Assembly (NCBI GenBank): GCA_902775075.1
Contig: CACYKX010000044.1
Coordinates: 1-16,611 of the forward strand
DNA: 16,611 nt
Origin: an uncultured Prevotellaceae bacterium
GTDB taxonomy: Bacteria > Bacteroidota > Bacteroidia > Bacteroidales > Bacteroidaceae
Direction of reading: 5' to 3'
Part shown: positions 226-16,611 of the stretch, piece after piece
How positions within the stretch are numbered: the stretch's first letter is position 1
Layout of the letters: every line of letters begins with the position of its first letter
Notes under the pieces: model-generated
Databases searched by the model: none
What the model saw: the letters and a program-made list of their open reading frames with translations, nothing else
Told to the model about the DNA's origin: nothing
Position numbers and translations under genes: made by a program

Positions 226-3200
226 TTAACAATCTTCTATTGTAATGTCAAACTTAATCTCCTTATTACGATAAATGTTGATATTAACGTCAGGAGTAAT
301 GTAGTTGGCATCGAAACGTTCATTATTGCTGCTTATATTCCACTCGTTGATAAAACCACCATCAGGGTAAATACAAAGTTTCTTTTTGCCACAAATGATG
401 GAAAGTTCACGCCAATGAGTTAATGAGCGCTTGTCTCCTGGCTGGATAGGTACCAAATCGCCCTTGATGTCATCATTATAACTGAGATTCTTCAGCCAAT
501 CAGTTGTCAGGAGTTTAAGTTTTGAATCACGTACATCAGAAGAAGGCATATTAGCAGTAATACTATCAGACTTCCCCTTGTCATCACGATAGGTTTCAAG
601 TTTAAACTCTATCGTGAAATCCTTATCAATCTGTTTCACGAAATGTTCAACTGTCTGTAATGTCAGAATCATACCCATGATACTCTTTAGGTGCTCATCC
701 TGATAAGAAATTGTCAGTTTCCCACTATTTTGCTTGGCATATCCGATAAACTGGTCAATGAGTCCTTCAGACTTACTCTGGAGGATTTCTCCGAGCTGAG
801 TAGAACCTATTTCACGATATTCGTTACCTGACAGTTTTATCAACATTGTTGATGGTTTGAATGACGTATCTATTGCCTTTGCCTTAGTTATAGGATTATC
901 AATACGAACAAAGAACATTACCTCATTACCCCATTGAACATTGAGTTGTGCATGCTCTTTACTACTGGTAAAGTATAGATTGCCATCGATATAGGCCAAT
1001 GGGTACAAGCCATTGTTCACCCAAGGATTCTTCATAATCTTGGCATCATCACCTTTAGCCCATGCTTTGAACTCCCGAATCATAGACATGATTGGGTCAA
1101 CAATAGCGTTATCATCAGACTCCATCACACAGAATGTCGTGGTGTCACTCTTCATCACGAAATTGTTCATCAACTGTGGACGCCATCCTGTTTCTTTACC
1201 ATCGTAATCCCATTCCTTATAATCATTATCAACAAAAAGAACAAGATTCTGATGTGAGCCACTGAAAGCTTTCTGCAAATCATACAATGTTGTTTGCGAA
1301 GGTGATGCATTGGGAAAGGCATCTTTTACATTCTGGGGAATGGTATCGCCAACTTCTTCTTCCTCTGCAATCCAGGCAAGGGCTGCATCTATATCTACAT
1401 ACCTGATGAAGCGAAGTGTAAACTTGTCCAAAAGCATATCCTTTGAACACTTATCTTTAGCCTCTTGCAACAGTTTCTTAGATGCTTGGATGACTTCCTT
1501 CATCACCTGAATGTTTGCCATCTGGTTTGCGTAACCTGCACCGCCTGGATTACAGTCAAATACACAAAGATGACCATTAGGCATGATTGCGAAATCCACT
1601 GCACCACGTTCCTTGCCAAGAATATCCACAAGTGTTTGAGTAAACACAATACCAAGGGTGAAGAGCAAATTCTCTTCCTTAGAGCGGTCAGACATCCACT
1701 TATTTTGCCCCTTATGACGAATACGAATCTCACTATAGTCGGTCTGAATCAAGTCACCGATGATAACATTACGCTTTATCTTGGTTGGGTCATTGGAACA
1801 CCCACATCCTTTACGCATCTCCTTACCGGTGATAGCATAATGATAGTTTGGCTTTTCTGGCTGACCTTCTTTGCGTTTTGCAACAACAGGATTGAACTCG
1901 AATGGGAATTTCAAAGGTTCATCCTTATCTGCCACATCGTCCTCAATCACTGTTCTTCCACATCGAGGACAGAAACAGTAACCAAAGCCTTTTCCTTCAT
2001 TATAGTAGAGAATCTTGGCATTACCAGAATCACTATTAGGACGTACAGAGAACAAATGTGGTTCAGTTACATTGTTTGACCAGTCATCTGCATCAATCAA
2101 CTGAGCACTTACACGAGTGAATACATTACTATCCATAATACGTGTCTTGTCCTCATTAATATCAGGCATAAACCCAACCGGCTGGATTAGGTCAAGTCCA
2201 TAATCATTATTAACGCCCCATCTAATCTGAGTGCTCAAATTCGGGTCATCTATGACTGTTTTATCATTATTACGGTATATAGTTTTGAATGACTTCACAT
2301 TGTCATCATACATATTCGTGATTTCTATACCTCGTACAGTATATACAACTCCATCAACTGCAACGCTATTACCTGGTGCATATTGAGCAATAGCATCTCG
2401 TAATGAGTATGATGGATTTGAAGATGACATTGGAGTCAAATAATCCCTCTTGCCATTACTATTTAAGTCAAGTGTGAGGACATTGACAGGCATATTGGCA
2501 TTAGGAGTAAAACGACTTGTTGCCCAATAATTTAGCAATCGCTGATTAAGAACAGAGAAGTACTGCAATTTTAACTTAATTCGGAATCGTTCATTTTTCG
2601 TTGAATCCGGGTCATCAAAAGCAGTCTTATAATCAACCAACTTGTTATATAGTTCAGAATAACAACGCTCATTATTATCCTTTGCATTCCTGATGACCAG
2701 AGTCAACTGGTCTTCAAAAATTGTTCCTTTCAAGAGGCTTGTTAAATCTTCACGGAGATTCGGAGTGTCCGACAAAGGCTTGCAGCACATCTGATTGAAG
2801 CGTTCATACATAGTTCCTGCCGAATTTCCCAGCAAATCTTTAGGATCTGCTTCACTGGCCCCATTCAGGACAAGCAACTTTCCCTGTGACAAACGAACTT
2901 CAAAATTGGTATAGTAGTCAGCCACCTTCTGACCAAGACTACCACCATTTGCCCCTTCACTGAACACTCCAAAGGCGCGTACAAGGAATGAATTTACATG
3001 TCGCTGAACAACCTGAGGACTTTTCAAGTCAACGGTCGGAACACGGACAGGACGATTGATAATCTTCTCAATAGGATTTGTGAGTGTACGGAGACCAATA
3101 ACATCTGAACCACACAAAGTAATACATGCACTTCTTACTTTATTGTTACGTCCACTTCGACCTGCACGCTGCTTATAGTTTGATGGATGTGGCGGTACAC

Positions 3201-6200
3201 TTGACAGCATTACAACCTCCAAATTACCAAGGTCAACACCCATTTCCATAGTTGTTGAACAAGCCAAAATATTAATTGTATGGTCTTTGAACTTTGACTG
3301 CAATCCACGAGCAACACTCTTATCTACCTGAGCTGTATGTTCTTGCTGAACAAAAAGATTAGGAAAGACATGAATATCCTCCAGACGATCACTGAACACA
3401 CCATCTTCTCCCCAAACATTGTTATTCCAAAGTAAATTTCTGTGGGTCTTTGCCCATGTAGTGACGGTTTGTTTATCACCTTCCTTACCTGAACCTACAT
3501 AGTATGGGAATGCCTCCCATGTCTCATGCAAATCTTCATTAAGTTCTACAGGTGTGCTTCCTTCCATGTAAGGTGAAAAACGCTTGAAGTTATTACCAAT
3601 AGGACGTAAACATACAGCATGATTACCCACATCTGATTTTGTATCACACAAATACACATCATCATAGAGCTTGAAGCAGAGGTCATTAAGATTGTAACGA
3701 GGAGCATTATCCTTCTCTGGCACAAAATTACCTCCATCATCCAAGCGCATACCAACACTCATTATCCCATACTCTGGTCCTGTAAGTGTGTCCCAAAGTG
3801 CATCAATAACTGCTGAGATTTCATTGAAATATTGATGCTGCGCATCGTTCAGTGACAAAGAGTTGTCATCACGAGAAATCAAAGCACACAAATACCGAAC
3901 AATACGGGCTGTTGACACTTTGCCTTGTTCCAACTTTGGCTTGTTGAATGGTCGGCGGCGAGGTTTCTCCGTCGCGAATCGCACAGTAGAGAAAATGTCT
4001 ATCTTGTCATTGCCAGGAATACGCAAATAGAATGACTGGTTGTTTCGTACAGTATAGTCGAGATATACTTGCATTAGGCTTCTCCAGTCCTCTTCAGTAA
4101 TTCTATTAGCAGGGCTATCAAGGATATCATTAAAGTCTTCAACAGCCTGGGGCAAATGGATTTCTTTTAGTTTGGGATAACATGTCTCAAACAAACCCAT
4201 AGTTTCAGGAGATGCAGCAGATGCAGGACGGTGAGCAAGATACATCACCATAATGCTCTGAATATACTTGTCCATTATCTCCTCTGATGGAAGACCATCT
4301 TCAATTTCATCACTGTCTCCAGAACGCTTAACGAATACAGAACAGAATACAGGGCAATATGGATCTCGTTTGACAAGTTCTGCTATTTCGCTCCACGTAA
4401 TATAGTTGCAGGACATTTCGTCCAACTGCTTCTGTACAACAGATGGGTCAGTTGACTGAAGATTTGCCATCATTGGAGCATATTTCATCATAGTCATAGG
4501 ATCTGCCTGTACAGCAGCCATTATCTGAGCCATAGCAGCCTCTTTTGTCAGACCATTGGCCTTTCTTCTACACAGTTCATGATAAATGATGCTGTAGAAC
4601 CACATACGTTCTTGCTCCAGATTCTGTTTCAAAGTAGCCTTGGCAGCAGATTGACGACTATCGACAAAGCTAATATACTGTTGCCCTTTATGTAAGACAA
4701 TTCCATCAGTCTTAGATGTACCTTCTTCCAGCTGGTCAAGGATTGATGGTGCCATCATTCGTGAGATAAAATCAGCAGAAAGACGGAATTTTTGAAGACG
4801 ATTATCTTCCATGTTACCATTGGCATCACCTTCAAGTTCCTTTTCTGTATCACGCTTTCTTGTCTGCTTTGCATTGCAATTTGGGCAGCAGCATTGTGTA
4901 TTACCTACAAGTCGCCAAGGACGATATGACTTTTCACTTGCCAGAGCATTCTTTTCCTCTGCCTCTATTTCAGCAGGTGTCATAGGCTGCAACTTGCCCC
5001 CTGGCAGTACTTTGAAACTTACATTGTTATCTCCCTTCGAGTTTTTCTCATTCGAAAGTCCGAATATAGCATACTTTTTGGTTGATTCATCATCAGCATC
5101 GGCATCTACCAGGTCAAACATATCGCTATCATCAGTAGCCAATGGTTCATATGTCCAATCTGAGGTGTCAACCATAGCAAGTGCAACATACTCTCCGCAA
5201 TGTTTACATCGGCTCATTTCAAGCAGTGGATTTTCTTCAACACTCGTTGCTTCACCATCGCTAATGCGCTTGCCAATGGTATTTTCCGTATAGATTTTGA
5301 ATGCGCCATCAGCTATTTCGTCCAGACGAACAAACAATCCATTGTTAGGTACTCTATAGAAATAATGTACCTTCAACTTCATATCTGGAGCATTCTTACC
5401 AGCAGCCTTAAAACGTTCCTCTTCACGCTGACACATTTCGTCAAGCCATTGTAGCTTATCGCTGATTTCTGCATCACCTGGGTATAGTTCATCCAATGAT
5501 ACAAAATCCTTAGCAAATATCGTCTTCCATCGCTCGGCATCTTCCCCTTCAGGAATAACATTCTCACCGATTCGTACGCCACCAACAGCTTCTACTTGTT
5601 CTGGTAATATGCCAGTTATTCCAGAAATGAATTCTTTAAGTTCTCTTTCATCCTTCTCCTTGTCTTCACCGTTACCGAATGTTGCTGATGAGGTTGCGAA
5701 GTGTACATCATGAGCATCAACGTTGAAAGCAAGTAAGACTCTACGAAGGAGCATTGCCAATTCTGCAGCACCAGCTCCCGTATAGCTGTGAGTTTCATCG
5801 ATGGCCACCCATCGAAGACTTTTCTTTCCTGCGTTAATAATCTTTGCATCGGTGCCACGAAGCAAGATATACTCTAACATGGTAGGGTTTGTCAACAAGA
5901 TATTCGGTGGATTCTTTCGCACCATCTGTCGAGTATATACCATGTGGCTAAACTTCAAGTTCTCTAACACATAGTAGCCCTTCTCGTGTGGATCTGGCTG
6001 ATAGAAGGCATATTTACCTCCTGTAACCTGCTCGATGCGCTTACGCATCTTCATAGCATCGTCCGAAGCATCATTTCTATCAGGTTCTTTCTCTGGAAGG
6101 TCACCATTATATACAGTATAAGTAAGATTTGTTCCTGCAAGTAGCTCTTCCAAACGCTCCTTCTGGTCTTCCATCAAAGCATTTAGAGGATATAGGAACA

Positions 6201-6639
6201 AAGCCTGTATCTCATCAGGCATAGCATTTTGCTTCAAGTCATAGACAAGAGGCATCATGAAGCACTCAGTCTTACCCGAACCAGTACCTGTTGTAACAAC
6301 TATAGACATGGGCTTCTTCTCTCCACCAATTTCTATAGTCTTATTCAACAAGGCATCCCAACATTTATACTGATGTTCATATGGAGCGTATGAGGATTTC
6401 CACAAATCGCCTACGAGAGACTTTGCTGTTTCTACCGAAACACTATGAACAGCTTCATAGGAGTTCATGCATTGTACTACAGGAACAGCATTCTTTGGTG
6501 CAAAAACTTCACCAATGATTCTCTTCATCTGCTTCTGGTACGCACGTTGACTATCGTTGTGTGATTCACCACACCACATTGCAACAAGTGCTCGCTCTAC
6601 GGATGCACGGTTATTCTTGTATAATTCAGAGAAATTCAT
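226..6639 (-). CDS. Very large SF2 helicase with DUF1998 region, DruE-like (Druantia) defence helicase
   Basis: This 2137-residue protein is a superfamily II DNA helicase of the YprA/MrfA-DrmA-DruE type. Visible motifs: Walker A TTGTGSGKTE (116-125), motif Ia FLYPLNALMEDQ (148-159), TNPTMLEY (250-257), DETH Walker B (281-284), SSATFGN (317-323), motif IV-like FVDSRQSAA (658-666), motif V around TTMEMGVDLG (1129-1138) and motif VI QRAGRSGR (1157-1164). A CxxC at 478/481 and the cluster CCCPNC at 583-588 probably form an interrupted zinc ribbon. About 430 residues separate motif IV from the rest of the second RecA lobe. The C-terminal part has CPRC (1557-1560), CGC (1612-1614) and FDCNPGGAGYA (1694-1704), the GGAG signature of DUF1998, then about 370 unassigned residues. 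The size and the preceding 857-residue gene, 23 nt upstream, fit DruE of type III Druantia. Helicase and DUF1998 are certain by motif; the DruE name is inference. The most likely alternative is a DrmA-DrmB-like fusion. Confidence 0.82.
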   Translation of the reverse strand: MNFSELYKNNRASVERALVAMWCGESHNDSQRAYQKQMKRIIGEVFAPKNAVPVVQCMNSYEAVHSVSVETAKSLVGDLWKSSYAPYEHQYKCWDALLNKTIEIGGEKKPMSIVVTTGTGSGKTECFMMPLVYDLKQNAMPDEIQALFLYPLNALMEDQKERLEELLAGTNLTYTVYNGDLPEKEPDRNDASDDAMKMRKRIEQVTGGKYAFYQPDPHEKGYYVLENLKFSHMVYTRQMVRKNPPNILLTNPTMLEYILLRGTDAKIINAGKKSLRWVAIDETHSYTGAGAAELAMLLRRVLLAFNVDAHDVHFATSSATFGNGEDKEKDERELKEFISGITGILPEQVEAVGGVRIGENVIPEGEDAERWKTIFAKDFVSLDELYPGDAEISDKLQWLDEMCQREEERFKAAGKNAPDMKLKVHYFYRVPNNGLFVRLDEIADGAFKIYTENTIGKRISDGEATSVEENPLLEMSRCKHCGEYVALAMVDTSDWTYEPLATDDSDMFDLVDADADDESTKKYAIFGLSNEKNSKGDNNVSFKVLPGGKLQPMTPAEIEAEEKNALASEKSYRPWRLVGNTQCCCPNCNAKQTRKRDTEKELEGDANGNMEDNRLQKFRLSADFISRMMAPSILDQLEEGTSKTDGIVLHKGQQYISFVDSRQSAAKATLKQNLEQERMWFYSIIYHELCRRKANGLTKEAAMAQIMAAVQADPMTMMKYAPMMANLQSTDPSVVQKQLDEMSCNYITWSEIAELVKRDPYCPVFCSVFVKRSGDSDEIEDGLPSEEIMDKYIQSIMVMYLAHRPASAASPETMGLFETCYPKLKEIHLPQAVEDFNDILDSPANRITEEDWRSLMQVYLDYTVRNNQSFYLRIPGNDKIDIFSTVRFATEKPRRRPFNKPKLEQGKVSTARIVRYLCALISRDDNSLSLNDAQHQYFNEISAVIDALWDTLTGPEYGIMSVGMRLDDGGNFVPEKDNAPRYNLNDLCFKLYDDVYLCDTKSDVGNHAVCLRPIGNNFKRFSPYMEGSTPVELNEDLHETWEAFPYYVGSGKEGDKQTVTTWAKTHRNLLWNNNVWGEDGVFSDRLEDIHVFPNLFVQQEHTAQVDKSVARGLQSKFKDHTINILACSTTMEMGVDLGNLEVVMLSSVPPHPSNYKQRAGRSGRNNKVRSACITLCGSDVIGLRTLTNPIEKIINRPVRVPTVDLKSPQVVQRHVNSFLVRAFGVFSEGANGGSLGQKVADYYTNFEVRLSQGKLLVLNGASEADPKDLLGNSAGTMYERFNQMCCKPLSDTPNLREDLTSLLKGTIFEDQLTLVIRNAKDNNERCYSELYNKLVDYKTAFDDPDSTKNERFRIKLKLQYFSVLNQRLLNYWATSRFTPNANMPVNVLTLDLNSNGKRDYLTPMSSSNPSYSLRDAIAQYAPGNSVAVDGVVYTVRGIEITNMYDDNVKSFKTIYRNNDKTVIDDPNLSTQIRWGVNNDYGLDLIQPVGFMPDINEDKTRIMDSNVFTRVSAQLIDADDWSNNVTEPHLFSVRPNSDSGNAKILYYNEGKGFGYCFCPRCGRTVIEDDVADKDEPLKFPFEFNPVVAKRKEGQPEKPNYHYAITGKEMRKGCGCSNDPTKIKRNVIIGDLIQTDYSEIRIRHKGQNKWMSDRSKEENLLFTLGIVFTQTLVDILGKERGAVDFAIMPNGHLCVFDCNPGGAGYANQMANIQVMKEVIQASKKLLQEAKDKCSKDMLLDKFTLRFIRYVDIDAALAWIAEEEEVGDTIPQNVKDAFPNASPSQTTLYDLQKAFSGSHQNLVLFVDNDYKEWDYDGKETGWRPQLMNNFVMKSDTTTFCVMESDDNAIVDPIMSMIREFKAWAKGDDAKIMKNPWVNNGLYPLAYIDGNLYFTSSKEHAQLNVQWGNEVMFFVRIDNPITKAKAIDTSFKPSTMLIKLSGNEYREIGSTQLGEILQSKSEGLIDQFIGYAKQNSGKLTISYQDEHLKSIMGMILTLQTVEHFVKQIDKDFTIEFKLETYRDDKGKSDSITANMPSSDVRDSKLKLLTTDWLKNLSYNDDIKGDLVPIQPGDKRSLTHWRELSIICGKKKLCIYPDGGFINEWNISSNNERFDANYITPDVNINIYRNKEIKFDITIEDC

Positions 6640-6662: not shown

Positions 6663-9236
6663 TTATTCTAAGTATATTTTATGCTCTTGCCAGTCAAATC
6701 CCAACTCCTCACCAAGGCGTATGAGTCCGGCTTTATCTTTTTCTGTAAGTTCACCTCCTCTTAATTCAAGCAGAGGTTCATATATTGCAGAGATTATGTC
6801 TGCCTTAGACAAATCTCTCAGGGCTTTCATCAAGAAGAAATAATTATCTGCCTCGTTTGCAACCTCAAAGCATCGTAGTGGTGACTCTTCTATGTCATCC
6901 CATGCCCAGGGGTCATTGTCGAGGTCTTCTCCAAGATTACAGACAAGGTCTTTGTTCTTACTCAAATTCTGTAAAACGATGCCCACATCATAGCCATCAG
7001 TTCCATCCGAAGGATTAATAACTACAGGACTGCTGTTTTTATCGTAGTTCCAGAACAAAGCTTCATGACCTTCCCATTCTGTCTTATTTTGAGCATTACC
7101 AAAACAAATGGTTAAACAATCAGGAGCCATAGCATCCAACAACTTTCCAGCAAACCTTCTATCTAATCGCCAAGCGTTCAAAGCTGCCATACCAATGCTT
7201 GGATTATGCTCAATATCAATATATGTCTGTGAGTAGATACTGCACAGATTCTTACAATCATACGACTGATAGCCATGCTTGGAAAAATCGTTTACTAGAA
7301 CTCTGTCCTTAAAAATGTAAGGCAGATTTACTTTTTCATCACCATGCTTGTAGTCGATGATTTCACCATCAAGAATCACTTCCTTTATCAAGGTGGGACG
7401 ATAAACATCCACTTCGCAAAAGTTTTCTCCTTCGCCATACCGAATAGGAACAGTAGGGGAAAGAACCTTTTTATCCTCTGGAATGGTGTCCTTAATACAT
7501 GCTTCTGACCTATCAGGCTTACGATAGCGTATACAGGTTGTCTCAAAATCCCGTCGAATTGGATTGGCTTCATCAAGCCGTGGCAGATACATCACGGTGT
7601 AAGGGAATGTTCGACCCTTTACAGTTATTCGTAATTGAACCTCTCCGTATTGAGGTTCGTCAGCCGATGTCCATTCCTGATAACGTCCGTTCGGTTGTTT
7701 GAACTCAACAAGTTCTGCCACACAATCCTCTTCTGGCTGTGCATTCAAGATGTCATCCTTAGTAGCAAAATGACGTACTATCACGTCCTCCCAACCGAAG
7801 ATTAGTGGCAACTCATCAATATCATAATTGTCCGATTCATCTGGGTCTTCAATATAGTAATGTTTTACCTTTCCTCCATTAACATAATGGATAGAATCTG
7901 AGTAAAGTTTTGATGTTATCTGGTCATAACCAATACGGTTATATAGACTTATCTCTTTACCCTTCTCGTCAATAAAGGTTACAGAATCATAGATGTAGAA
8001 CCAGTTTAGAGGTTCGCTCATTCCATACTTTTGGTCTCGGAAACTCTTTCTGTAAACATCATCAACTATGCTTTCATCCTTCAATGAACAGCGATTAGAG
8101 AATAGCAGAGCTGTTTCTTTTTGTGCATTTTGTGTTGAAGTCCAAGTATCTCCATAGCTCACATTTCGCCAAAGCTGAATGTATTCTCTTGCAGCTTCAG
8201 ACTGTGCGATGTATTCTTTGCCATCTTCGTCTCTGGCAATAATCTCTATAGTATCAAATTTACATGTTGGCACATGTTTGCATTGTGCACACTTTTCTAT
8301 ACCGAATGCGACAAAACCTGTGTCAGCCTGGCCTGTATTGAGGTAGGTAATGATTGGGCTGTCCATTGTTGATGGCTCAACGACCTCATTATCTCTCTTA
8401 AATCTAACATAAATGTATAGCTTATGCTGCTTTTCGGGATAAGCGACACCCCATAAATGTACTCTGTCATAACGGAGATACTGATGTAACTCACCTCCAA
8501 CTTCTTCAGGTTTCATCCAAATGTTAAGACGGCGAGTCATACAACTATATTGTGGAGAGAATGTCACTTGCCATTCAAATCGGAACTTAACCTTCAAAAT
8601 CTCATCGTTTGCAGCTTTTACGGTGGCAATGAATCGGTTCACATCTGAACCAGCATCTGAAAGGTCTTCCTCATTAAAAGGCATTTCGCCATTCAATATC
8701 TGGCGCATATACTCAAAGAGCGAGTGCTGACGCTTGATACTCTCTCGAAAGGCAATAGCCCTTGATGCTTCGTCAAGATTCTCCAAGGTGTAGTTCTCTC
8801 CATGATAGATGCGACAAAGCCCCTTGAGGAACTTCATGTTATCATTTCTCGACAACTCATGTTGTATGGCAAGTCCACCAAGGACATAGATGGAGTATAG
8901 CCAACGCTTGTTGCCGGACTCGTCACGATAAAGATACTGCTTGATGCTGATTCCACTGTTGCGAAACAACTGTTCTACATCAACACCATCCATCAGGTCA
9001 CACTTGTTTCCACTTTGGTACTTACGTTTGTACCATTCGGCAAGATAAACCACACCATAGATGGCATTCTCTGTTGTGGAAAGTGCAGTATTTCCTCTGT
9101 CGGCAATAAACGCAGAAAGGCAGGCTTCAAGTTCTTTGAAGTCTGTCTCAGACAACTTTAGTCGCCAGACATATGGCTCTCTAATGTCGAGTGACAATAT
9201 TTTATCGCGTAATGCGCTGCTTAATCTTCCTTGCAT
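6663..9236 (-). CDS. Unrecognised 857-residue defence protein, candidate DruH-like partner of the large helicase
   Basis: I do not recognise a domain in this 857-residue protein with confidence. It shows no helicase, nuclease, methyltransferase or kinase motif, no signal peptide and no convincing membrane segment, so it is probably cytoplasmic. It has a clustered Cys motif CAQCKHVPTC (C316, C319, C325; CxxC-x5-C) that could bind metal, and a strongly acidic stretch near 462-475 (IEDPDESDNYDIDE). The C-terminal third has aromatic and acidic segments such as DNDPWAWDDIEESP. The ATG at 9236 lies inside the end of the HNH gene (16-nt overlap), so translation is probably coupled. The stop is 23 nt before the giant DUF1998 helicase. 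In type III Druantia a large protein of unknown domain content (DruH) is encoded directly before DruE; position and size match that layout, so a DruH-like role is the leading guess, from context only. Confidence 0.75.
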   Translation of the reverse strand: MQGRLSSALRDKILSLDIREPYVWRLKLSETDFKELEACLSAFIADRGNTALSTTENAIYGVVYLAEWYKRKYQSGNKCDLMDGVDVEQLFRNSGISIKQYLYRDESGNKRWLYSIYVLGGLAIQHELSRNDNMKFLKGLCRIYHGENYTLENLDEASRAIAFRESIKRQHSLFEYMRQILNGEMPFNEEDLSDAGSDVNRFIATVKAANDEILKVKFRFEWQVTFSPQYSCMTRRLNIWMKPEEVGGELHQYLRYDRVHLWGVAYPEKQHKLYIYVRFKRDNEVVEPSTMDSPIITYLNTGQADTGFVAFGIEKCAQCKHVPTCKFDTIEIIARDEDGKEYIAQSEAAREYIQLWRNVSYGDTWTSTQNAQKETALLFSNRCSLKDESIVDDVYRKSFRDQKYGMSEPLNWFYIYDSVTFIDEKGKEISLYNRIGYDQITSKLYSDSIHYVNGGKVKHYYIEDPDESDNYDIDELPLIFGWEDVIVRHFATKDDILNAQPEEDCVAELVEFKQPNGRYQEWTSADEPQYGEVQLRITVKGRTFPYTVMYLPRLDEANPIRRDFETTCIRYRKPDRSEACIKDTIPEDKKVLSPTVPIRYGEGENFCEVDVYRPTLIKEVILDGEIIDYKHGDEKVNLPYIFKDRVLVNDFSKHGYQSYDCKNLCSIYSQTYIDIEHNPSIGMAALNAWRLDRRFAGKLLDAMAPDCLTICFGNAQNKTEWEGHEALFWNYDKNSSPVVINPSDGTDGYDVGIVLQNLSKNKDLVCNLGEDLDNDPWAWDDIEESPLRCFEVANEADNYFFLMKALRDLSKADIISAIYEPLLELRGGELTEKDKAGLIRLGEELGFDWQEHKIYLE

Positions 9237-9982
9237 ATAATCAAAGGTTTCTTATCGCCTCGGTATGCTTCACGCAATTCATGAAGACTGAGAGGCCCTT
9301 GCTTTCCGTGATGAATCATGGAATGACAGTTTGAGCAGAGAGGAACAAGGTTTTCCACATAGTCTTCTGGACGGTTCTCATCATATGTAGAAATCATCTG
9401 AAGGTGATGTACCTCTATAAAATTGGCACCTAATTCCTCACCATACATACTTGCAAAGTCCATACCACAGCATTGGCATTGATAGCCGTATTTGTCCAGA
9501 CAGGCTTGCCTGAGCTTTGGATTGCGATGAGCAGTCTCAAATTCCACATGCTTCTTTTCGCCTTCTGTCATTTCTCGCTCCTTCGGTTGATGAGAAACAG
9601 ATTGTGCTGTTTCCTTAGGAGAGGAAACTTGTTCGTTCGGACTTTCAATGCGACTCTTAAAGAGCTGCTTAAAATGCTTGGACTCCAAGAACATAGAATA
9701 AAGCTTCAGGTGGCTCGAATACTTTAGTTCCGCAGCTTCATTGGCATCCTTCATCTCTTGATTGAGAGGTATCTGACTTATAATGCGGTCATAATAGTTA
9801 TGATCAAGCTCTGCATAAACGCCCTTGAAACTTGCGTCAGCATATTGACGTATGAAGTAGGTCAACTCCTTTTCTGTGAAATCGGCTATTGCTTCTGCAT
9901 TGCTCTTACGCTTTGCTTCAAGGTTGGCAATATATGCATCCCTAAGTTTCAATAGATTCACGTCTATTTGTTGCTTTGTCAT
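9221..9982 (-). CDS. HNH endonuclease (McrA-type), 253 aa
   Basis: The C-terminal half is a clear zinc-supported HNH (beta-beta-alpha-metal) nuclease domain. C169 and C172 form the first CxxC, VHH (191-193) is the catalytic first H, N211 the central residue, C216 and C219 the second CxxC, and H224/H225 the final H. Such domains nick or cut double-stranded DNA using one divalent metal. Residues 1-110 form a charged, mostly helical N-terminal domain without a recognised family. A polar linker (about 113-150, rich in S, E, K, Q) separates the two halves. The ATG at 9982 is preceded by the A-rich leader AAAGATAAAAAAG. It follows a 90-nt gap, the largest in the operon, and its end overlaps the next gene by 16 nt. 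It is the only unmistakable nuclease in the window. Its target is unknown; the McrA resemblance suggests modified DNA, but that is inference. Confidence 0.9.
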   Translation of the reverse strand: MTKQQIDVNLLKLRDAYIANLEAKRKSNAEAIADFTEKELTYFIRQYADASFKGVYAELDHNYYDRIISQIPLNQEMKDANEAAELKYSSHLKLYSMFLESKHFKQLFKSRIESPNEQVSSPKETAQSVSHQPKEREMTEGEKKHVEFETAHRNPKLRQACLDKYGYQCQCCGMDFASMYGEELGANFIEVHHLQMISTYDENRPEDYVENLVPLCSNCHSMIHHGKQGPLSLHELREAYRGDKKPLIICKED

Positions 9983-10072: not shown

Positions 10073-13000
10073 TCATTCATCCATTGGCTTTATCAGTGAC
10101 TCAATATATTCACGTTCGAACAAATCAATACCGTATTTTGTGTACAATTCTTCGTCTGTCCATGGCTTTGAAAAATCTTGCAGAGGTACAAATTGGAACA
10201 ATTCACGTGTTACATTTTGCGTTTTTTTCTTTATTAATACAAGATAACGGAAGAATTTCGTCTTTATATACGTAATCGCGTTTTCGCATTCTTCTTTTGA
10301 CTTAAACTCTCCGTTATAGCCTATGACAATATATGTCACGGAACAAACACTATTCTTTTCCCCATAAAAAGGAACACCTATTATCTGGTGTGGGAAACTT
10401 TCTCCGGCTCCATATGCTTTAGAAATATATACTTTGCATACATCTTTTGCCTGTTTATTCTTTGGTATGTCAGATTCTTTTATCCAACCATAGCCTTTTC
10501 CATTAAGTTGTTTATTAAGATAATATTTAACAGTATGTTCAGAATCAGGATTGTCTACAAAGCCCTTCCAATTAGAGCCAAGAATACTTTCACCTTCAAT
10601 TTTAGTGGTGAAGAAATCTCTTGGACTTATTAAACTTGCAAATGAGTTTTCATTCGTTAACTTACCTTCCACTGCAAAAACCTTTTCTAAGATGTTTCCT
10701 GCATAGCTGTCACGAATAATAATACCAGCATCTAAAGCATTCAATTTGTCATCTTTAACAACTGTATGACCTCCCTGAGTTAAATAATGAGCACAAGTTC
10801 CAATATACTGGTTACTATACAAGAAATAGTTTACACCACCTTTGATTTCAACACCAGGAAAACATTCACTTGCGTTCATATAATCATATATTTTTATGAA
10901 ATGATTGCTATTTATCATTTCATCAACCCACTCTTCTTTTATACCTTGCCCGTCTTTTGTCATCCATCTGCTTGGGGTAATCATAGAAATGAATGAGGGA
11001 TTTAGATTACGAGCTATGTCAATAAAAAGAGGATAAATAGAACCCGCATACGAACTAATTTCTGACAAAGAAACCTGATATGGGGGATTACCAACTACTG
11101 CATTAAAAGCTATCATTTGTTTACTTGTATTACCTTTCCAAAAACCGACACTCTTTATCTCATTTATGAGTGTATCTTGGTCATTTGTTGCTTTTTCAAT
11201 TAATTGTTCATTCTTGATATTCGCCTTCTTCTCAACCTGACGGAAACCGAAGAGTGTACGTTTTGTGATTCCAACAGCCATCGGTGTATTGCATATGACA
11301 AAGATATTGTCAGCAACAATATCATCCCATACAACCTGTTCCTCTTGTACGCTGACATTCTCAATCTCAATACATTCAGCCTTCACATATTCTTCAAGGC
11401 GACGACGATACAAAGAATATGTAATATAAAGAGGATAAAGACCCGTTTTAGAATTAATCTCTAGTATTTTAGTCTGTACCTCACCAGAAAGATCAACATT
11501 ATCAAAAAGCTGCTTAGTAACGTCACCTTGATCAACGAAACGAGGAGAATCAAGCTGCCCTGTTTTCTCATCGAAGGTCTCGTCATAGAAACAGTAGCCA
11601 CCAAGAGTGTCACTCATGTGCATGTTTACAACACGCCATGGGGTAAGTACAGTTTCCTTGTCTGGGTTACGGAAATAAGAGAATATCTCAGCAATTTGTT
11701 TGATACGTTCGTCAACGTGCATAAAATCAGCTTCACGAGTGAGAGCACGATATTTCTTACCTGCCTCTTCAAAACGGGTGGCGTTGAAACACTTGCGAAT
11801 CTTATTAAAGTCCTCCTTGCTGATACCCTTAGGCATAAACTCAGCCCAAGACTCATCTTTAATCTTACGAGTAAAGTTGTCAACTGTAAGGTCTTCTTTA
11901 GGATCACCAGCATCGGCTCCACCATACATCAAAAGAGGAATACGGAGAGCAATACCACGAATATTTGTTATACGTGCTTTGAACTCCTCTCGTGCTTTCT
12001 TCAGTTCTTCGTTGCGAGCAAGACGCTCAGCTTCCTTCTGGAGCCATTCTTCACGCTGTTCTTCTGACCACTCTTCCCATTGTTTTCTGAACTTCTCATC
12101 CTTCTGAGCCTTCTTCTTCGCTCTTTCTGCAGCTTCTGCTCTCTTGCGACGAATACTTTCTTCGTATGCAGCACGTTCTTCCTCAGTCATGTGACTAAGG
12201 TCAACTGACTTCTTCGCTTCTTGGCGTTTTTCATCAGGAGCCTTTCCACCATTTTCACCAATATGGTTAACAATGTCTTCGTCTATCTTATTAAGTTCAT
12301 CTTGATTGTAAAGACATGGATCATCAAAGCCCTTGCGGACAAGGCGATCAATAAAGACATTTTCTAACTGCTTGTAGATGTACTTAACATCGACAGGACT
12401 CATCTTTCCCCCATTCATTGAGATAACAGGGCAAAGAGCAATGAAATCACTTACTGTTTCCTTATCGCGTTGCTCCTGTGTCTTTTCTTCCTCGCCTTCC
12501 TCTTCCTTCTTTTCCTTAGTCTTTGCCATGGAAGAGAATTTAGCTGTCTCTGCTACAATTTTCAATGTTCGATCTGGTGCAAAGTCAAAGACATAACAAG
12601 AGGTTTTCATCTTACCGTCAGGAGTCTTGTATGGTGACTGAACACGGAAGATTGTCTGCATATACGTTGCTGCACCATCACCTCCTTTAAGATAGAGGAC
12701 AGCAGACCATGGGCGTACTGTGACACCTGTAGTTAGACGACCACAAGAAATGGTAATGGTACTTGTTTTCTCAGGTAATTCGCCAATTGCATTGTTTACA
12801 GCATCAAGAGCATTTTCGTTCTGTTCATCAATATCACCCTTTCCAGCAACATTGACTATTTCAAAACGCCTGAATGTTGGATGCTCACGTAACAATTGCG
12901 TCAAAGCTGCAGCTTCGTCAACATGTGATACAACCCATAGTGTGTGACGGAACTGCTGACGATATTCTGTAGTAGAGAATGGGAAATTATTGGTGTCATC

Positions 13001-14065
13001 TTTTGTACAAAGTAACTGAAGGAATTTCTTTACCTCATCTTCATGCACAAATCGTCCTTTTGCTCCTTGTGGCATTACTGCCTTGTCTGCCTTTGGATTA
13101 CCTGTCCATGTACGCAAGAACTCATTAAAAGTGAATACACCATCATGATCCACAACATCTTTTATGTTATTAGTAATATCGTAGGTGTATATGTTCATTT
13201 TTGGCAATTCTGCGTATGGATTCGGCTCATGTGGGTGCTTTATGTTCCATTCGAGCTTTGCCTGCTGCTCTGAAACGTAATCCCAAGTGAAGATTTCCTC
13301 TTCTTTGAAATCTTCATACAGGTTAAAAGGAGTACCAGAAAGATGAAGCATCTTTGTCTGTTCCTTATGCAAAAACTCATCAATAACACGCTTACCAAGA
13401 GCTGTCCGTGTACCCTCATGTGCTTCGTCAATAACAACAAGATCCCAATCGGTATTCAAGATGTCTGCCTTTAGCTTCTCATTCTCTTTGGTAGAGTTAT
13501 GGCCAAACATGTCATCTTGCTTATCCTTATTCTTCACCTGAGTCTTTACATTAACAAGTTCAGACAAACGTAGGTACTGCATGGAAACGAAGAATACGTA
13601 GTGATTATCTTCACTTTGGTTGGCAAACTTTTCCAAATCGTAAAACTTACGCTTATCGTGCTGCTCGTCATCAAACAAAGTACCATAGTCCCACTTCTTC
13701 TTCTGGTTGTCATTTCCAGCTATTCGGTCTGTAACTACATTATCGAAGTCATCTTTCCAACTTTTATTTACAACAGGACGATGGGTTACAATAAGAGTGC
13801 GTTTCACTCCCATTTCACGAGCAAGTTGCAAAGCACATAGAGTTTTACCAAAACGCATCTTTGCATTCCACAAATACTGTGAATACTTTGATTCTACCGT
13901 CCATTGATAACCAGAAGCCTTACTGCCGCTTCGTTTGCAGAATTGGTTCTTAGCTCGATCGATAGCATCCCTTTGTTCAGAACGAAGCGTAATCTGGTCA
14001 TCACCGAAAAGTGATGTTCCAAACGTCGCCTGTATCTCTTCTAAAGTATTAAACGTTTTGTCCAT
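10073..14065 (-). CDS. SF2 helicase fused to an Eco57I-like N6-adenine DNA methyltransferase and specificity region (1330 aa)
   Basis: The N-terminal SF2 helicase starts almost at residue 1, leaving no room for an N-terminal nuclease. Motifs: Q-like LRSEQRDAI (27-35), Walker A AKMRFGKT (68-75), Walker B VIDEAHEGT (211-219), motif III HLSGTPF (241-247), and VI-like ATYMQTIFRVQSP (466-478). Residues about 620-705 are a long charged helical stretch, probably coiled coil, linking the halves. The methyltransferase follows: motif X-like LTPWRVV (807-813), motif I-like ILEINSKTGLYPLY (867-880), catalytic motif IV NPPY (993-996) with preceding FNAVVG, then FPGVEIKGGVNYFLY (1069-1083). A C-terminal target-recognition part ends in VPLQDFSKPWTDEELY. 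The family methylates N6 of adenine; the helicase should translocate on DNA during restriction. It lies 13 nt after the 406-residue MTase-like gene, a recurrent partner. The NPPY-to-recognition segment is notably AT-rich. No nuclease motif is visible, so how DNA is cut is open. Confidence 0.88.
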   Translation of the reverse strand: MDKTFNTLEEIQATFGTSLFGDDQITLRSEQRDAIDRAKNQFCKRSGSKASGYQWTVESKYSQYLWNAKMRFGKTLCALQLAREMGVKRTLIVTHRPVVNKSWKDDFDNVVTDRIAGNDNQKKKWDYGTLFDDEQHDKRKFYDLEKFANQSEDNHYVFFVSMQYLRLSELVNVKTQVKNKDKQDDMFGHNSTKENEKLKADILNTDWDLVVIDEAHEGTRTALGKRVIDEFLHKEQTKMLHLSGTPFNLYEDFKEEEIFTWDYVSEQQAKLEWNIKHPHEPNPYAELPKMNIYTYDITNNIKDVVDHDGVFTFNEFLRTWTGNPKADKAVMPQGAKGRFVHEDEVKKFLQLLCTKDDTNNFPFSTTEYRQQFRHTLWVVSHVDEAAALTQLLREHPTFRRFEIVNVAGKGDIDEQNENALDAVNNAIGELPEKTSTITISCGRLTTGVTVRPWSAVLYLKGGDGAATYMQTIFRVQSPYKTPDGKMKTSCYVFDFAPDRTLKIVAETAKFSSMAKTKEKKEEEGEEEKTQEQRDKETVSDFIALCPVISMNGGKMSPVDVKYIYKQLENVFIDRLVRKGFDDPCLYNQDELNKIDEDIVNHIGENGGKAPDEKRQEAKKSVDLSHMTEEERAAYEESIRRKRAEAAERAKKKAQKDEKFRKQWEEWSEEQREEWLQKEAERLARNEELKKAREEFKARITNIRGIALRIPLLMYGGADAGDPKEDLTVDNFTRKIKDESWAEFMPKGISKEDFNKIRKCFNATRFEEAGKKYRALTREADFMHVDERIKQIAEIFSYFRNPDKETVLTPWRVVNMHMSDTLGGYCFYDETFDEKTGQLDSPRFVDQGDVTKQLFDNVDLSGEVQTKILEINSKTGLYPLYITYSLYRRRLEEYVKAECIEIENVSVQEEQVVWDDIVADNIFVICNTPMAVGITKRTLFGFRQVEKKANIKNEQLIEKATNDQDTLINEIKSVGFWKGNTSKQMIAFNAVVGNPPYQVSLSEISSYAGSIYPLFIDIARNLNPSFISMITPSRWMTKDGQGIKEEWVDEMINSNHFIKIYDYMNASECFPGVEIKGGVNYFLYSNQYIGTCAHYLTQGGHTVVKDDKLNALDAGIIIRDSYAGNILEKVFAVEGKLTNENSFASLISPRDFFTTKIEGESILGSNWKGFVDNPDSEHTVKYYLNKQLNGKGYGWIKESDIPKNKQAKDVCKVYISKAYGAGESFPHQIIGVPFYGEKNSVCSVTYIVIGYNGEFKSKEECENAITYIKTKFFRYLVLIKKKTQNVTRELFQFVPLQDFSKPWTDEELYTKYGIDLFEREYIESLIKPMDE

Positions 14066-14078
14066 AGAAGTGAGGGTT

Positions 14079-15299
14079 TTATTGTTGAGTTTTATTGTTA
14101 TTTACTAATGATTCAAAGGTCTGTTTAGGAGCAGACTGGTCATGAAAGTCTTGCGACTTTAATGTTGCCTTCTTGATATTTACTCCGTCAAAGAAATCCT
14201 TGATTAAACAGTATTGCTCAAAGAGTTGAACTGGTTCAGGAACAGGTTTTACCAACTCCGGAAGATTCATCTCGTCAAGACCGAATAAACTATTCTGAGC
14301 AATTTCTGCTCTTTCTTTTATTTGCCTTTCGTAGTCTTTTAACTTTGCTTGGTATAATTCATCACGCTGTTTGCGATTCTGAACCTTTTCTTCATATCCT
14401 GGCAATCCGTAAGTAAGACCATCCATCTGCCATAAGTTCCATGATACAATGTAAGCAACACCTGGCATTATACGCATCTTGTTTTGGTTAAACTTTTTTT
14501 CGCCAAACTGCTCAACGTAGTGTTCCTCAAATGTGAAGAAGAGAGCTTCACGAGCTAAAAGTAGGTTATCACCTTGCCACTCGAAACCGTATGTTGAGCG
14601 TAAGGCAATCTTTGCCCATAAAATCCACTCTTTTGAATCCTTCACATTCTCTGAAACAATACGCAGTTTGCGGTCGAGCATACCTATACGGAACTTTGCC
14701 ACATCATTATATTCGCCAGTAACTGCATCATAACGATTAGCGAGATAAGGAGCTTCACCACAGGTAATCTCCAGACGCATATCAGCCACATAATCCTTCC
14801 AATCTTTCCCAGTACCTTCAAAAGAGATTTGCTCTTCATTGTTTATCCATTTATGCGGATTATCAGGGTCAGGGGAGTTGAAAAGACCTTCTTTACGACC
14901 GAACCAAGCTTCATCAATCAAGTTATTCTGTGCATTACAAATCCATGAAGGAGTAAACACTTCTGCCTTATCCTTGGCTCGTTGTGTTTGCTCTTCCTTC
15001 GATTTTACAGCACGAGGACGAATAATTTCTTGATATTTGCTTTTATCATCAGGATTCTGCTTTATATCTTCTTCATACTGTTCTTTTGTTAATACAACGC
15101 CATCATCAGAAACATACGAAGTGATTTTGTCTATTGTTATTGGGTCAAAGAAAGCGAAACCTTCTCCATAATCAGCATACGACTCGGTAGCCCAGTAGAT
15201 GTTCTGCTGGGTGGTATGGTCCTTCAGAAGGTTCATACAAACCTGTTCTCCGTAGCTGAGAAGCAATTGGTTTTCACTTATGTCTGAACTATTAACCAT
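14079..15299 (-). CDS. Methyltransferase-like restriction subunit ("subunit M" type), lacks NPPY
   Basis: This 406-residue protein has a shortened N6-adenine-methyltransferase-like fold. The motif X-like segment KDKAEVFTPSWI (109-120) matches the (G/A)EVFTP start of such enzymes. LEITCGEAPYL (176-186) stands where the SAM-binding motif I belongs, and GDNLLLAREAL (243-252) resembles the motif after it. Where NPPY is expected I find only IVSWNLWQMDG (284-294), so the catalytic tetrad is absent and the protein probably cannot methylate alone. Residues 303-335 are a charged coiled-coil-like helix. Such proteins are commonly annotated as restriction subunit M next to helicase-methyltransferase fusions, as here with a 13-nt gap to the NPPY-containing partner. 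The likely role is an accessory or DNA-recognition subunit; that part is inference. ATG at 15299 follows a 50-nt gap with a candidate promoter. Confidence 0.8.
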   Translation of the reverse strand: MVNSSDISENQLLLSYGEQVCMNLLKDHTTQQNIYWATESYADYGEGFAFFDPITIDKITSYVSDDGVVLTKEQYEEDIKQNPDDKSKYQEIIRPRAVKSKEEQTQRAKDKAEVFTPSWICNAQNNLIDEAWFGRKEGLFNSPDPDNPHKWINNEEQISFEGTGKDWKDYVADMRLEITCGEAPYLANRYDAVTGEYNDVAKFRIGMLDRKLRIVSENVKDSKEWILWAKIALRSTYGFEWQGDNLLLAREALFFTFEEHYVEQFGEKKFNQNKMRIMPGVAYIVSWNLWQMDGLTYGLPGYEEKVQNRKQRDELYQAKLKDYERQIKERAEIAQNSLFGLDEMNLPELVKPVPEPVQLFEQYCLIKDFFDGVNIKKATLKSQDFHDQSAPKQTFESLVNNNKTQQ

Positions 15300-15315: not shown

Positions 15316-15341
15316 GTGCAAATCTAAACTTATACTGTGCA
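15316..15341. promoter_or_regulatory. Direct repeat GTGCA at 21-bp spacing around the candidate promoter
   Basis: In the 50-nt gap before the MTase-like gene, GTGCA occurs at 15316-15320 and again at 15337-15341, start to start exactly 21 bp, about two helical turns. The pair brackets the minus-7 box. A looser TGCA lies at 15305-15308. A regulator of this operon (WYL or XRE) could bind here, but five-base repeats can arise by chance, so this is only a candidate operator. Confidence 0.22.
15319..15326 (-). promoter_or_regulatory. Candidate Bacteroidota minus-7 promoter element TAGATTTG
   Basis: The minus-strand octamer TAGATTTG fits the Bacteroidota sigma-ABfr minus-7 consensus TAnnTTTG at every fixed position. 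It lies about 20 nt upstream of the ATG at 15299, so transcription would begin with a very short leader. No TTTG minus-33 element is visible at the usual distance, so the promoter would be weak or activator-dependent. It would serve the MTase-like gene and everything downstream, separately from the XRE/WYL genes. Confidence 0.4.
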
Positions 15342-15349
15342 GTCTATCT

Positions 15350-16373
15350 TCACACCCCGTAGATTTTTACAATTTCTTTATATTTTTCAATAATTTGATT
15401 ACGAAACCACTCTGGAGAGAGCACTTCAACCTGCTGTCCAAACGAGAAGATGTTTTGTTCCAACTCGCGGTTAATCCTCACATCGATGGATAGCGTGCCA
15501 TCTTCTGCATTCACGACCTGTTGACTTTGATGAATCGGCTTCGAAACGACATAAGGAAATCGCTCTTTAGCGAATTTCAGTACGACATGTTCTACATCAG
15601 GATGCTTGCGGTCATGAGTTACACCTACTATGTCATCGAAATATGTCTCATAGTCAATCTGGTCATTTTCTACAAACCGCACATTGGCGATAGAGAACTT
15701 CACAATACGGTCGAGAGCCTTGTTTACTGGACTCATTCCATATTCTCCATGGTCTTCAAGTCCGAAAAGGAACCACCGTGTATTGTACTGCTTCATATAG
15801 TGAGGATGGATGACCATAGTCTGTTCATCCCCTTTATATGGGCGGTAAGTCATCTTCAATGGCTGGTGGTTGATTATTGCATCGATAAGGTCTGAAAGAA
15901 ACTCAATGCCTTTCAGCTGGTCATTTTGCTCAAAGGAAACGACTTTATCACGATTAGCTTTTATACCAAAACGGAGTTCCAAACTTGAAATCACCTCTTC
16001 CAGCCATGCGTTCTTAGGACTGCGATAGCGACCAAGCATGTCAATGGTTGAAAGGAGGTTCTTCACTTCCTCGACAGAAAGTTCACTGCTGAAGATGGAG
16101 AAATGGGGATCTTCATAAGTGTAGTAGCATCTTCTACCCTCAATAGGACGCGCCACGATAGGAGCATTATAAGAAACTCTGTCACGCATATAAGTTATAT
16201 CAGCACGTATTTGACGAAGACTGACAGTCTTACCATACATATCAAGCAAAGCATCATTTACCTTGTCAACGAGGTCTTCAATCTCGTAACGACGATGACG
16301 GTCACTGAAACAGCGGTCAAGTATCTGGTATCGTAAAAGCGCGTTCTTATAGCGCGTTCTTATTGATAGGCAT
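15350..16373 (-). pseudogene. WYL-domain transcriptional regulator, 5' end disrupted by a 13-bp tandem duplication
   Basis: WYL regulators pair an N-terminal helix-turn-helix with a ligand-sensing WYL domain and often repress defence operons. The expected start, ATG at 16373-16371, opens MPINKNAL and then hits TAA at 16349-16347, because a 13-bp unit is present twice (16338-16363). With one copy removed the frame reads MPINKNALLRYQILDRCFSD and continues without interruption to the stop at 15350, giving 336 residues, a normal length for this family in Bacteroidota. As it stands, the main frame has no ATG, GTG or TTG between the upstream stop at 16411-16409 and a TTG at 16249, so only a 299-residue product lacking the first 37 residues of the DNA-binding domain could be made. 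The retained part has the WYL core with NTRWFLFG and a C-terminal WCX-like segment FGQQVEVLSPEWFRNQI. The restored ATG is 21 nt after the XRE stop. It is either a recent pseudogene or a reversible off state. Confidence 0.85.
16338..16363. repeat. Exact 13-bp tandem duplication (2 copies of AGCGCGTTCTTAT)
   Basis: Plus-strand copies are 16338-16350 and 16351-16363, identical and directly abutting; flanking bases differ, so there are exactly two copies. The unit is not a multiple of three. It lies within the first eight codons of the WYL regulator and shifts its frame into an immediate stop. Loss of one copy restores the gene; adding further copies would not, because the same stop is met first. 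Confidence 0.95.
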
Positions 16374-16394: not shown

Positions 16395-16611
16395 TTAATC
16401 TTGATTTTTTAGAATCGTAGAATCATCCATACGAACTAGATCGCCAATATCACACTTCAATGCCTTGGCAATCTCAATTAAGCTCTCCAAGGTGGGCTGA
16501 GAGGTATTTGTCACCCATCTGGATATAGTGGCAGTGTCCTTGTTAAGCATCTCGCTCAGGTCTTTATTAGAAACCATGCGCTCTGCCATCACTACCTTAA
16601 TTCGATTCAAC
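16395..16611 (-). CDS. XRE-family helix-turn-helix regulator (5' end beyond the right window edge)
   Basis: A small single-domain DNA-binding protein of the XRE/Cro-C1 class. After NRIKVVMAERMVSNKDLSEM come the recognition-helix segment DTATISRWVTNTSQP and LIEIAKALKCDIGDLV, the usual five-helix layout in about 65 residues, with a short polar tail. The first in-frame start inside the window would be TTG at 16610-16608. I think this is an internal Leu codon, since relatives read MLNRIKVV or MKLNRIKVV, and the true ATG is probably just outside the window. The stop at 16395 is 21 nt before the original WYL start, so the two regulators look like a co-transcribed pair at the head of the defence array. 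It likely binds an operator near its own promoter, outside the window. Confidence 0.85.
   Translation of the reverse strand, partial: LNRIKVVMAERMVSNKDLSEMLNKDTATISRWVTNTSQPTLESLIEIAKALKCDIGDLVRMDDSTILKNQD

Follow-up and report, generated by a model that had tools for sequence, protein, structure and literature searches.

A 13-bp tandem duplication in a WYL regulator gene may leave a Druantia type III-like defence operon uninducible in an uncultured Prevotellaceae bacterium

Introduction

What becomes of a defence cluster when the gene of its regulator is broken? This question is raised by a stretch of 16,611 nucleotides (nt) from an uncultured Prevotellaceae bacterium (contig CACYKX010000044.1 of assembly GCA_902775075.1; hereafter, the window, meaning the whole stretch analysed). 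At its right end, on the minus strand, a small Cro/C1-type helix-turn-helix (HTH) gene, the gene of a WYL transcription factor and a defence cluster follow each other in this order, and a 13-bp tandem duplication ends the WYL frame after codon 8. A preliminary description of this DNA had suggested that the WYL protein may be a repressor, in which case its loss would raise defence expression. Our analysis somewhat favours the opposite, namely that the WYL protein is an activator resembling DriD and PafBC that serves a portable promoter cassette, and that the allele in the window makes the Druantia III-like operon uninducible. If this is true, breaking a WYL regulator silences a phage-defence operon, which is the reverse of the earlier prediction.

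The lesion in the WYL gene

The argument is built on four features:

16338..16363, minus strand: perfect 13-bp tandem duplication, copies at 16363-16351 and 16350-16338
16347..16373, minus strand: remnant of the WYL gene start, eight codons (MPINKNAL) followed by TAA at 16349-16347
15350..16336, minus strand: rest of the WYL reading frame, open, with the WYL (PF13280) and WCX (PF25583) domains
15317..15352, minus strand: promoter element TGMAG-N6-TGCAC-N10-TAnnTTTGCA, overlapping the WYL stop codon, with its -7 box at 15326-15319

The duplication and the early end of the frame, both noted in the preliminary description, were borne out by Tandem Repeats Finder (period 13, 2.0 copies, 100% match at 16338-16363, the top score of six rows) and by reading the minus strand from 16373. 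For unit lengths of 8-60 bases, the window holds no other perfect tandem duplication, and in 40 windows simulated with a first-order Markov model, a perfect tandem unit of at least nine bases never arose. There are exactly 2.0 copies, with no extra matching base at their borders; an origin by slippage at pre-existing microhomology was unsupported, as no base is shared beyond the 13-bp copies.

Six related loci were compared (L002-L007, with L002 from the nearest genome available, G001), of which L007 ends before the duplication site. The comparison of alleles that had been called for at the outset gave one copy in all five loci aligned over the site (L002-L006), hence not an outcome in which all close relatives carry two copies. 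The WYL genes of these five loci are open, with 336, 336, 336, 338 and 348 residues, and the full length of 336 residues proposed earlier agrees with the nearest of these relatives. An intact WYL N-terminus was also read in all 13 loci of a second set, at least five of which are places that had already been counted. A WYL relative at E up to 1e-30 was found in 56 of 199 genomes, and among the 67 WYL matches listed, none had an internal stop and seven had their start beyond the first 20 residues of the query.

Past the duplication, the window and L002 differ by 16 silent and three changing codons among 329, which signifies that the WYL frame was under selection until recently. Because the remaining frame is open and still conserved, the lesion is young, as had been supposed from the identity of the copies, and the WYL transcription factor (winged HTH-WYL-WCX) allele in the window is best read as a recent loss-of-function allele. 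The earliest ATG, GTG or TTG in the downstream frame is the TTG at 16249, which would give 299 residues. It corresponds to residue 38 of the intact protein, and a start there costs helix 1 and almost the whole of helix 2. Pfam detected the WYL and WCX domains in the protein of an intact relative. In the structural model of the intact L002 protein, which was based on 39 sequences (mean predicted local distance difference test score, pLDDT, 81.5; predicted template modelling score 0.54), the winged helix spans residues 5-82 and the WYL-WCX part begins at about residue 152. Activators of the DriD/PafBC type have a three-helix bundle between the winged HTH and the WYL domain; the model has candidate helices for it at 96-111, 115-130 and 152-163, but with pLDDT of only 45-62 over residues 91-150.

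The promoter element behind the WYL gene

The defence cluster has its own promoter element, which begins at the WYL stop codon (15319-15352 when the pattern is shortened by two bases). The Bacteroidota -7 box consensus, given as TAnnTTTG in the available text of PMC7366714, was found within 70 nt behind the WYL stop in 26 of 42 loci compared with 1.6 expected from base shuffles; in this set, the window was counted once together with the identical stretch of L002, and L014 (contig end) and presumed duplicates were omitted. When the first best box was chosen, ignoring anything upstream, a -7 box was obtained in 29 of the 42 loci, in three of them with one mismatch. With at most one mismatch each, TGCAC begins exactly 15 nt upstream of this box in 24 of the 29 loci and TGMAG 26 nt upstream in 23, both half-sites being present in 22. 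The two half-sites approach the palindrome TGMAG-N5-CTGCA, the linking C being found in just 55%. Because the letters of the N10 spacer are poorly conserved among the loci, the fixed spacing is not due to relatedness alone. A weak or absent -35 box (here the -33 box) would be expected for promoters of DriD/PafBC-type activators. The element occupies the position of the -33 box, with TTTG nearby in 2 of 29 loci, but this box is described as not universal in Bacteroidota. A sigma-70 promoter scan was set aside as unsuited to this phylum.

In five loci (L015, L016, L043, L049 and L053), the 3' coding end of the WYL gene contains the half-sites, and its stop codon and the -7 box overlap. The promoter of the operon that follows is therefore part of the regulator gene itself. 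Nonsense polarity as the chief effect of the duplication is weakened by the location of the promoter element behind the WYL gene.

Genome-wide, the exact pattern gave 33 matches in 21 of 200 same-genus genomes and the reversed pattern none. With the spacer allowed to range from 3 to 25 (TGCAG form only), there were 43 matches in 28 of 398 genomes, with a spacer of exactly 10 in 40 of them and of 17, 17 and 19 in the others; the reversed control with a free spacer had no match in the 398 genomes. These matches are not all independent, as some have the same sequence in different genomes and the 398 genomes include the 200. A WYL relative was present in 12 of 13 pattern-positive genomes and in 27 of 107 others (counted by hand in 120 genomes; Fisher p 3.7e-6). 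In part this association is inherent, given that a share of the sites lies behind WYL genes.

Thirty of the 33 sites were fetched: in seven cases a WYL gene ends 0-4 nt ahead of the site, and in two more one lies within 1 kb. Among the downstream products, 13 of 19 open reading frame (ORF) references of at least 100 residues were scanned, as two sets of 10 that share some members and with not every protein run against both libraries, and these comprised seven N6/type I methylases, one defence-type AAA ATPase, one candidate defence protein (DUF4268, PDC-S11), one DUF2130 protein, one HATPase protein and two without a match. At 11 of the 30 sites, no ATG-started ORF of 60 residues lies inside 200 nt. 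Small RNAs, short proteins or genes that begin at a codon other than ATG could be under the control of these perfect elements (L060, L061, L064, L065, L068, L070, L072-L074, L076 and L087). A literature search, mostly short of full text, did not find such a promoter motif reported; if the reading is true, defence induction in gut Prevotella can be tied to a definite promoter code for which genomes can be searched.

Activator or repressor

The best fold match of the WYL protein is DriD, the Caulobacter WYL activator, and among PDB sequence matches DriD and PafBC stand ahead of BrxR. The window's family shares the winged HTH, WYL and WCX domains with DriD and PafBC (from Pfam on the intact relative and the winged helix of the model), and its operator-promoter layout is comparable to that of DriD. 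As in activators of the DriD/PafBC type, the operator is placed at a constant distance from the core promoter (24 of 29 at offset 15; 40 of 43 with a spacer of 10). PafBC is a further likeness, described in the available text of PMC11804915 as a mycobacterial WYL-WCX DNA-damage activator that works by sigma adaptation, with a -26 motif and the housekeeping polymerase. The differences from DriD are an identity of 17-18%, the Bacteroidota -7 box TAnnTTTG, and the position of the WYL protein in front of a defence operon, whereas DriD controls DNA-damage genes.

The strongest alternative, which we nevertheless consider unlikely, is that of the preliminary description: the WYL protein would be a repressor like BrxR or CapW, which repress BREX and CBASS, and its loss would raise expression of the defence operon. 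BrxR chains were also matched at the profile level (E 8.4e-6 and 0.0035), more weakly than DriD and PafBC. The chains of BrxR and CapW are also shorter (266-295 residues), and their alignments to the WYL protein cover 215-229 residues compared with 290 for DriD. According to the available part of PMC9122588, CapW sites overlap the -10, and in that of PMC9122601, 338 of 347 members of a BLAST-defined BrxR family are in Proteobacteria. CapW disruption was unobtainable with the full system and a stop codon in BrxR had little effect, and the exact spacing to the -7 box better suits contact with polymerase. Derepression was thus probably the wrong prediction, given this fixed spacing and the matches to DriD and PafBC.

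Taken as an activator, the WYL protein would bind the element and recruit RNA polymerase in the manner of DriD and PafBC, the trigger perhaps being single-stranded DNA. The sequence comparisons suggest that the regulator normally turns such defence clusters on. The two-copy allele would leave the Druantia III-like operon at its basal level, uninducible instead of derepressed; because the regulator, an activator on this understanding, is broken, the strain is probably no longer able to induce its defence. If this is true, what induces these islands becomes open to direct tests that need a single gene and a short piece of the promoter.

Other explanations of the duplication

That the duplication is an assembly or sequencing artefact is improbable. 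No second genome with two copies was seen, but a 26-bp feature is readily spanned by reads and the remaining genes of the cluster are all long open frames. We give as little credit to the explanation that synthesis of the WYL protein continues, through frameshifting or from a non-standard start that lies in the first copy or ahead of it, so that the lesion is nearly silent. The WYL frame is stop-free from 16408 through both copies, and an ATA or ATT start would give a near-complete winged helix; against this, the stretch from 16408 to the TTG at 16249 holds no ATG, GTG or TTG in frame, and the relatives' frames start at the ATG. Frameshift signals were assessed by eye only.

Least probable is the phase-variable switch kept by selection that was also raised in the preliminary description. 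The copies are perfect, the relatives show the one-copy state and the WYL frame is still under constraint, but the repeat is present at the site in none of the five relatives, and the 26-bp two-copy sequence had no exact match in viral_contigs (the search did not extend to whole genomes and metagenomes). Across the related loci and viral_contigs, the two-copy allele was not seen outside the window, and BLASTN in 'distant' mode of the WYL region against plasmid and phage collections gave no match. The ON state has one copy and so nothing to expand, and the forward change would be no faster than ordinary mutation; since a contingency repeat must exist when the gene is ON, the duplication is an ordinary rare event and not a switch. 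Of the reversibility claimed earlier, what stands is that the duplication may collapse through rare slippage or recombination, as an ordinary revertible mutation with no built-in switch; the change from two copies to one may be easier than the forward one. A transposon target-site duplication remaining after loss of the element was also considered.

The defence cluster and the proposed portable cassette

The other genes of the window are:

16395..16610, minus strand: small Cro/C1-type HTH gene upstream of WYL, truncated by the window end
14079..15299, minus strand: 406-residue methyltransferase-like protein, first gene behind the promoter element
10073..14065, minus strand: 1330-residue protein with ResIII helicase and Eco57I methylase
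9221..9982, minus strand: 253-residue HNH endonuclease
6663..9236, minus strand: 857-residue protein, no Pfam or PADLOC match at 0.001
226..6639, minus strand: 2137-residue DruE (type III)-like helicase

The likeness to Druantia type III lies in the 2137-residue helicase, which has a match to DruE3 (E 5.8e-258); the cluster differs from that system in that the 857-residue protein has no PADLOC match and a methylase pair and an HNH nuclease stand alongside. In L002, the counterpart of the small HTH frame is longer by a few codons at its upstream end.

Compared with the window, identity of the HTH protein is 98.6% in L003 and on the contig of L002, 95.8% in L004 and 100% in L005; for the WYL part, it is 93% in L003. 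The methylase behind the WYL gene is 46% identical in L003 and 37% in L004, and the L005 locus has no match to it. Behind the WYL gene, AGATAGACTGCAC followed by the -7 box is common to the window, L002, L003, L004 and L007. With the HTH and WYL genes and AGATAGACTGCAC kept while the methylase behind them diverges, regulator and promoter seem to travel as one unit ahead of differing genes. The element also recurs behind diverged WYL genes and ahead of other defence-type operons.

Among metagenomic WYL protein clusters, the best 120 of 2072 were listed, and 97 of these shared 80% or more identity with the intact WYL protein. Lesions were present in 29 of the 97: ten internal losses of at least four residues, 15 clusters without at least 25 N-terminal residues and four without at least ten C-terminal residues. 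In the control with the neighbouring methylase, terminal losses were found in 0 of 45 clusters (0 of 120 at 70%), though several start 21 residues later, and in a list of the best 120 by score, shortened proteins are more easily missed for the methylase than for WYL. Internal losses of at least four residues occurred in 6 of 45 control clusters (37 of 120 at 70%), many with a common length variant. As 27 of the 29 lesioned clusters occur on a single contig and some lesions may be contig-edge effects, their use as proof of selection was rejected, given also the score-limited lists and the control's internal losses; they are a hint only.

The best-supported lesioned cluster, P0090, has 279 residues and 25 contigs, the longest of 60 kb; P0046 (336 residues) is likely its intact counterpart, judging by a common sequence signature. 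P0090 had no relative in viral_contigs, where one distant HTH was the only find. P0087, P0089-P0091, P0094 and P0096 form a metagenomic WYL lineage beginning at residue 58, which suggests a second, spreading N-terminal lesion. In P0060, P0065, P0067, P0072, P0080, P0093 and P0097, in-frame internal losses of 14-55 residues were observed in otherwise 94-99% identical proteins, on one contig each, and these are either real alleles or assembly errors.

A broader proposal is offered tentatively, as possible rather than probable: in Prevotella, and perhaps other Bacteroidota, DriD-like WYL activators would read the shared code TGMAG-N6-TGCAC-N10-TAnnTTTG at the end of their own genes, forming portable cassettes through which a single damage-type inducer would govern defence operons that are unrelated to each other. 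Populations would repeatedly lose the regulator's N-terminus and so carry silent, uninducible defence, the window being one case.

Two minor observations concern the promoter before the HTH-WYL genes in the nearest relative (Prevotella pectinovora P4-76). At L002:3591-3711, this promoter has undergone a recent 60-bp tandem duplication (61 matching bases), of which L004 and L005 have one copy. Ahead of it, at L002:3572-3597, an inverted repeat, TGCACGAA-N10-TTCGTGCA, was recognised by eye; it is imperfect in L004 and L005 and may be the operator of the small HTH protein.
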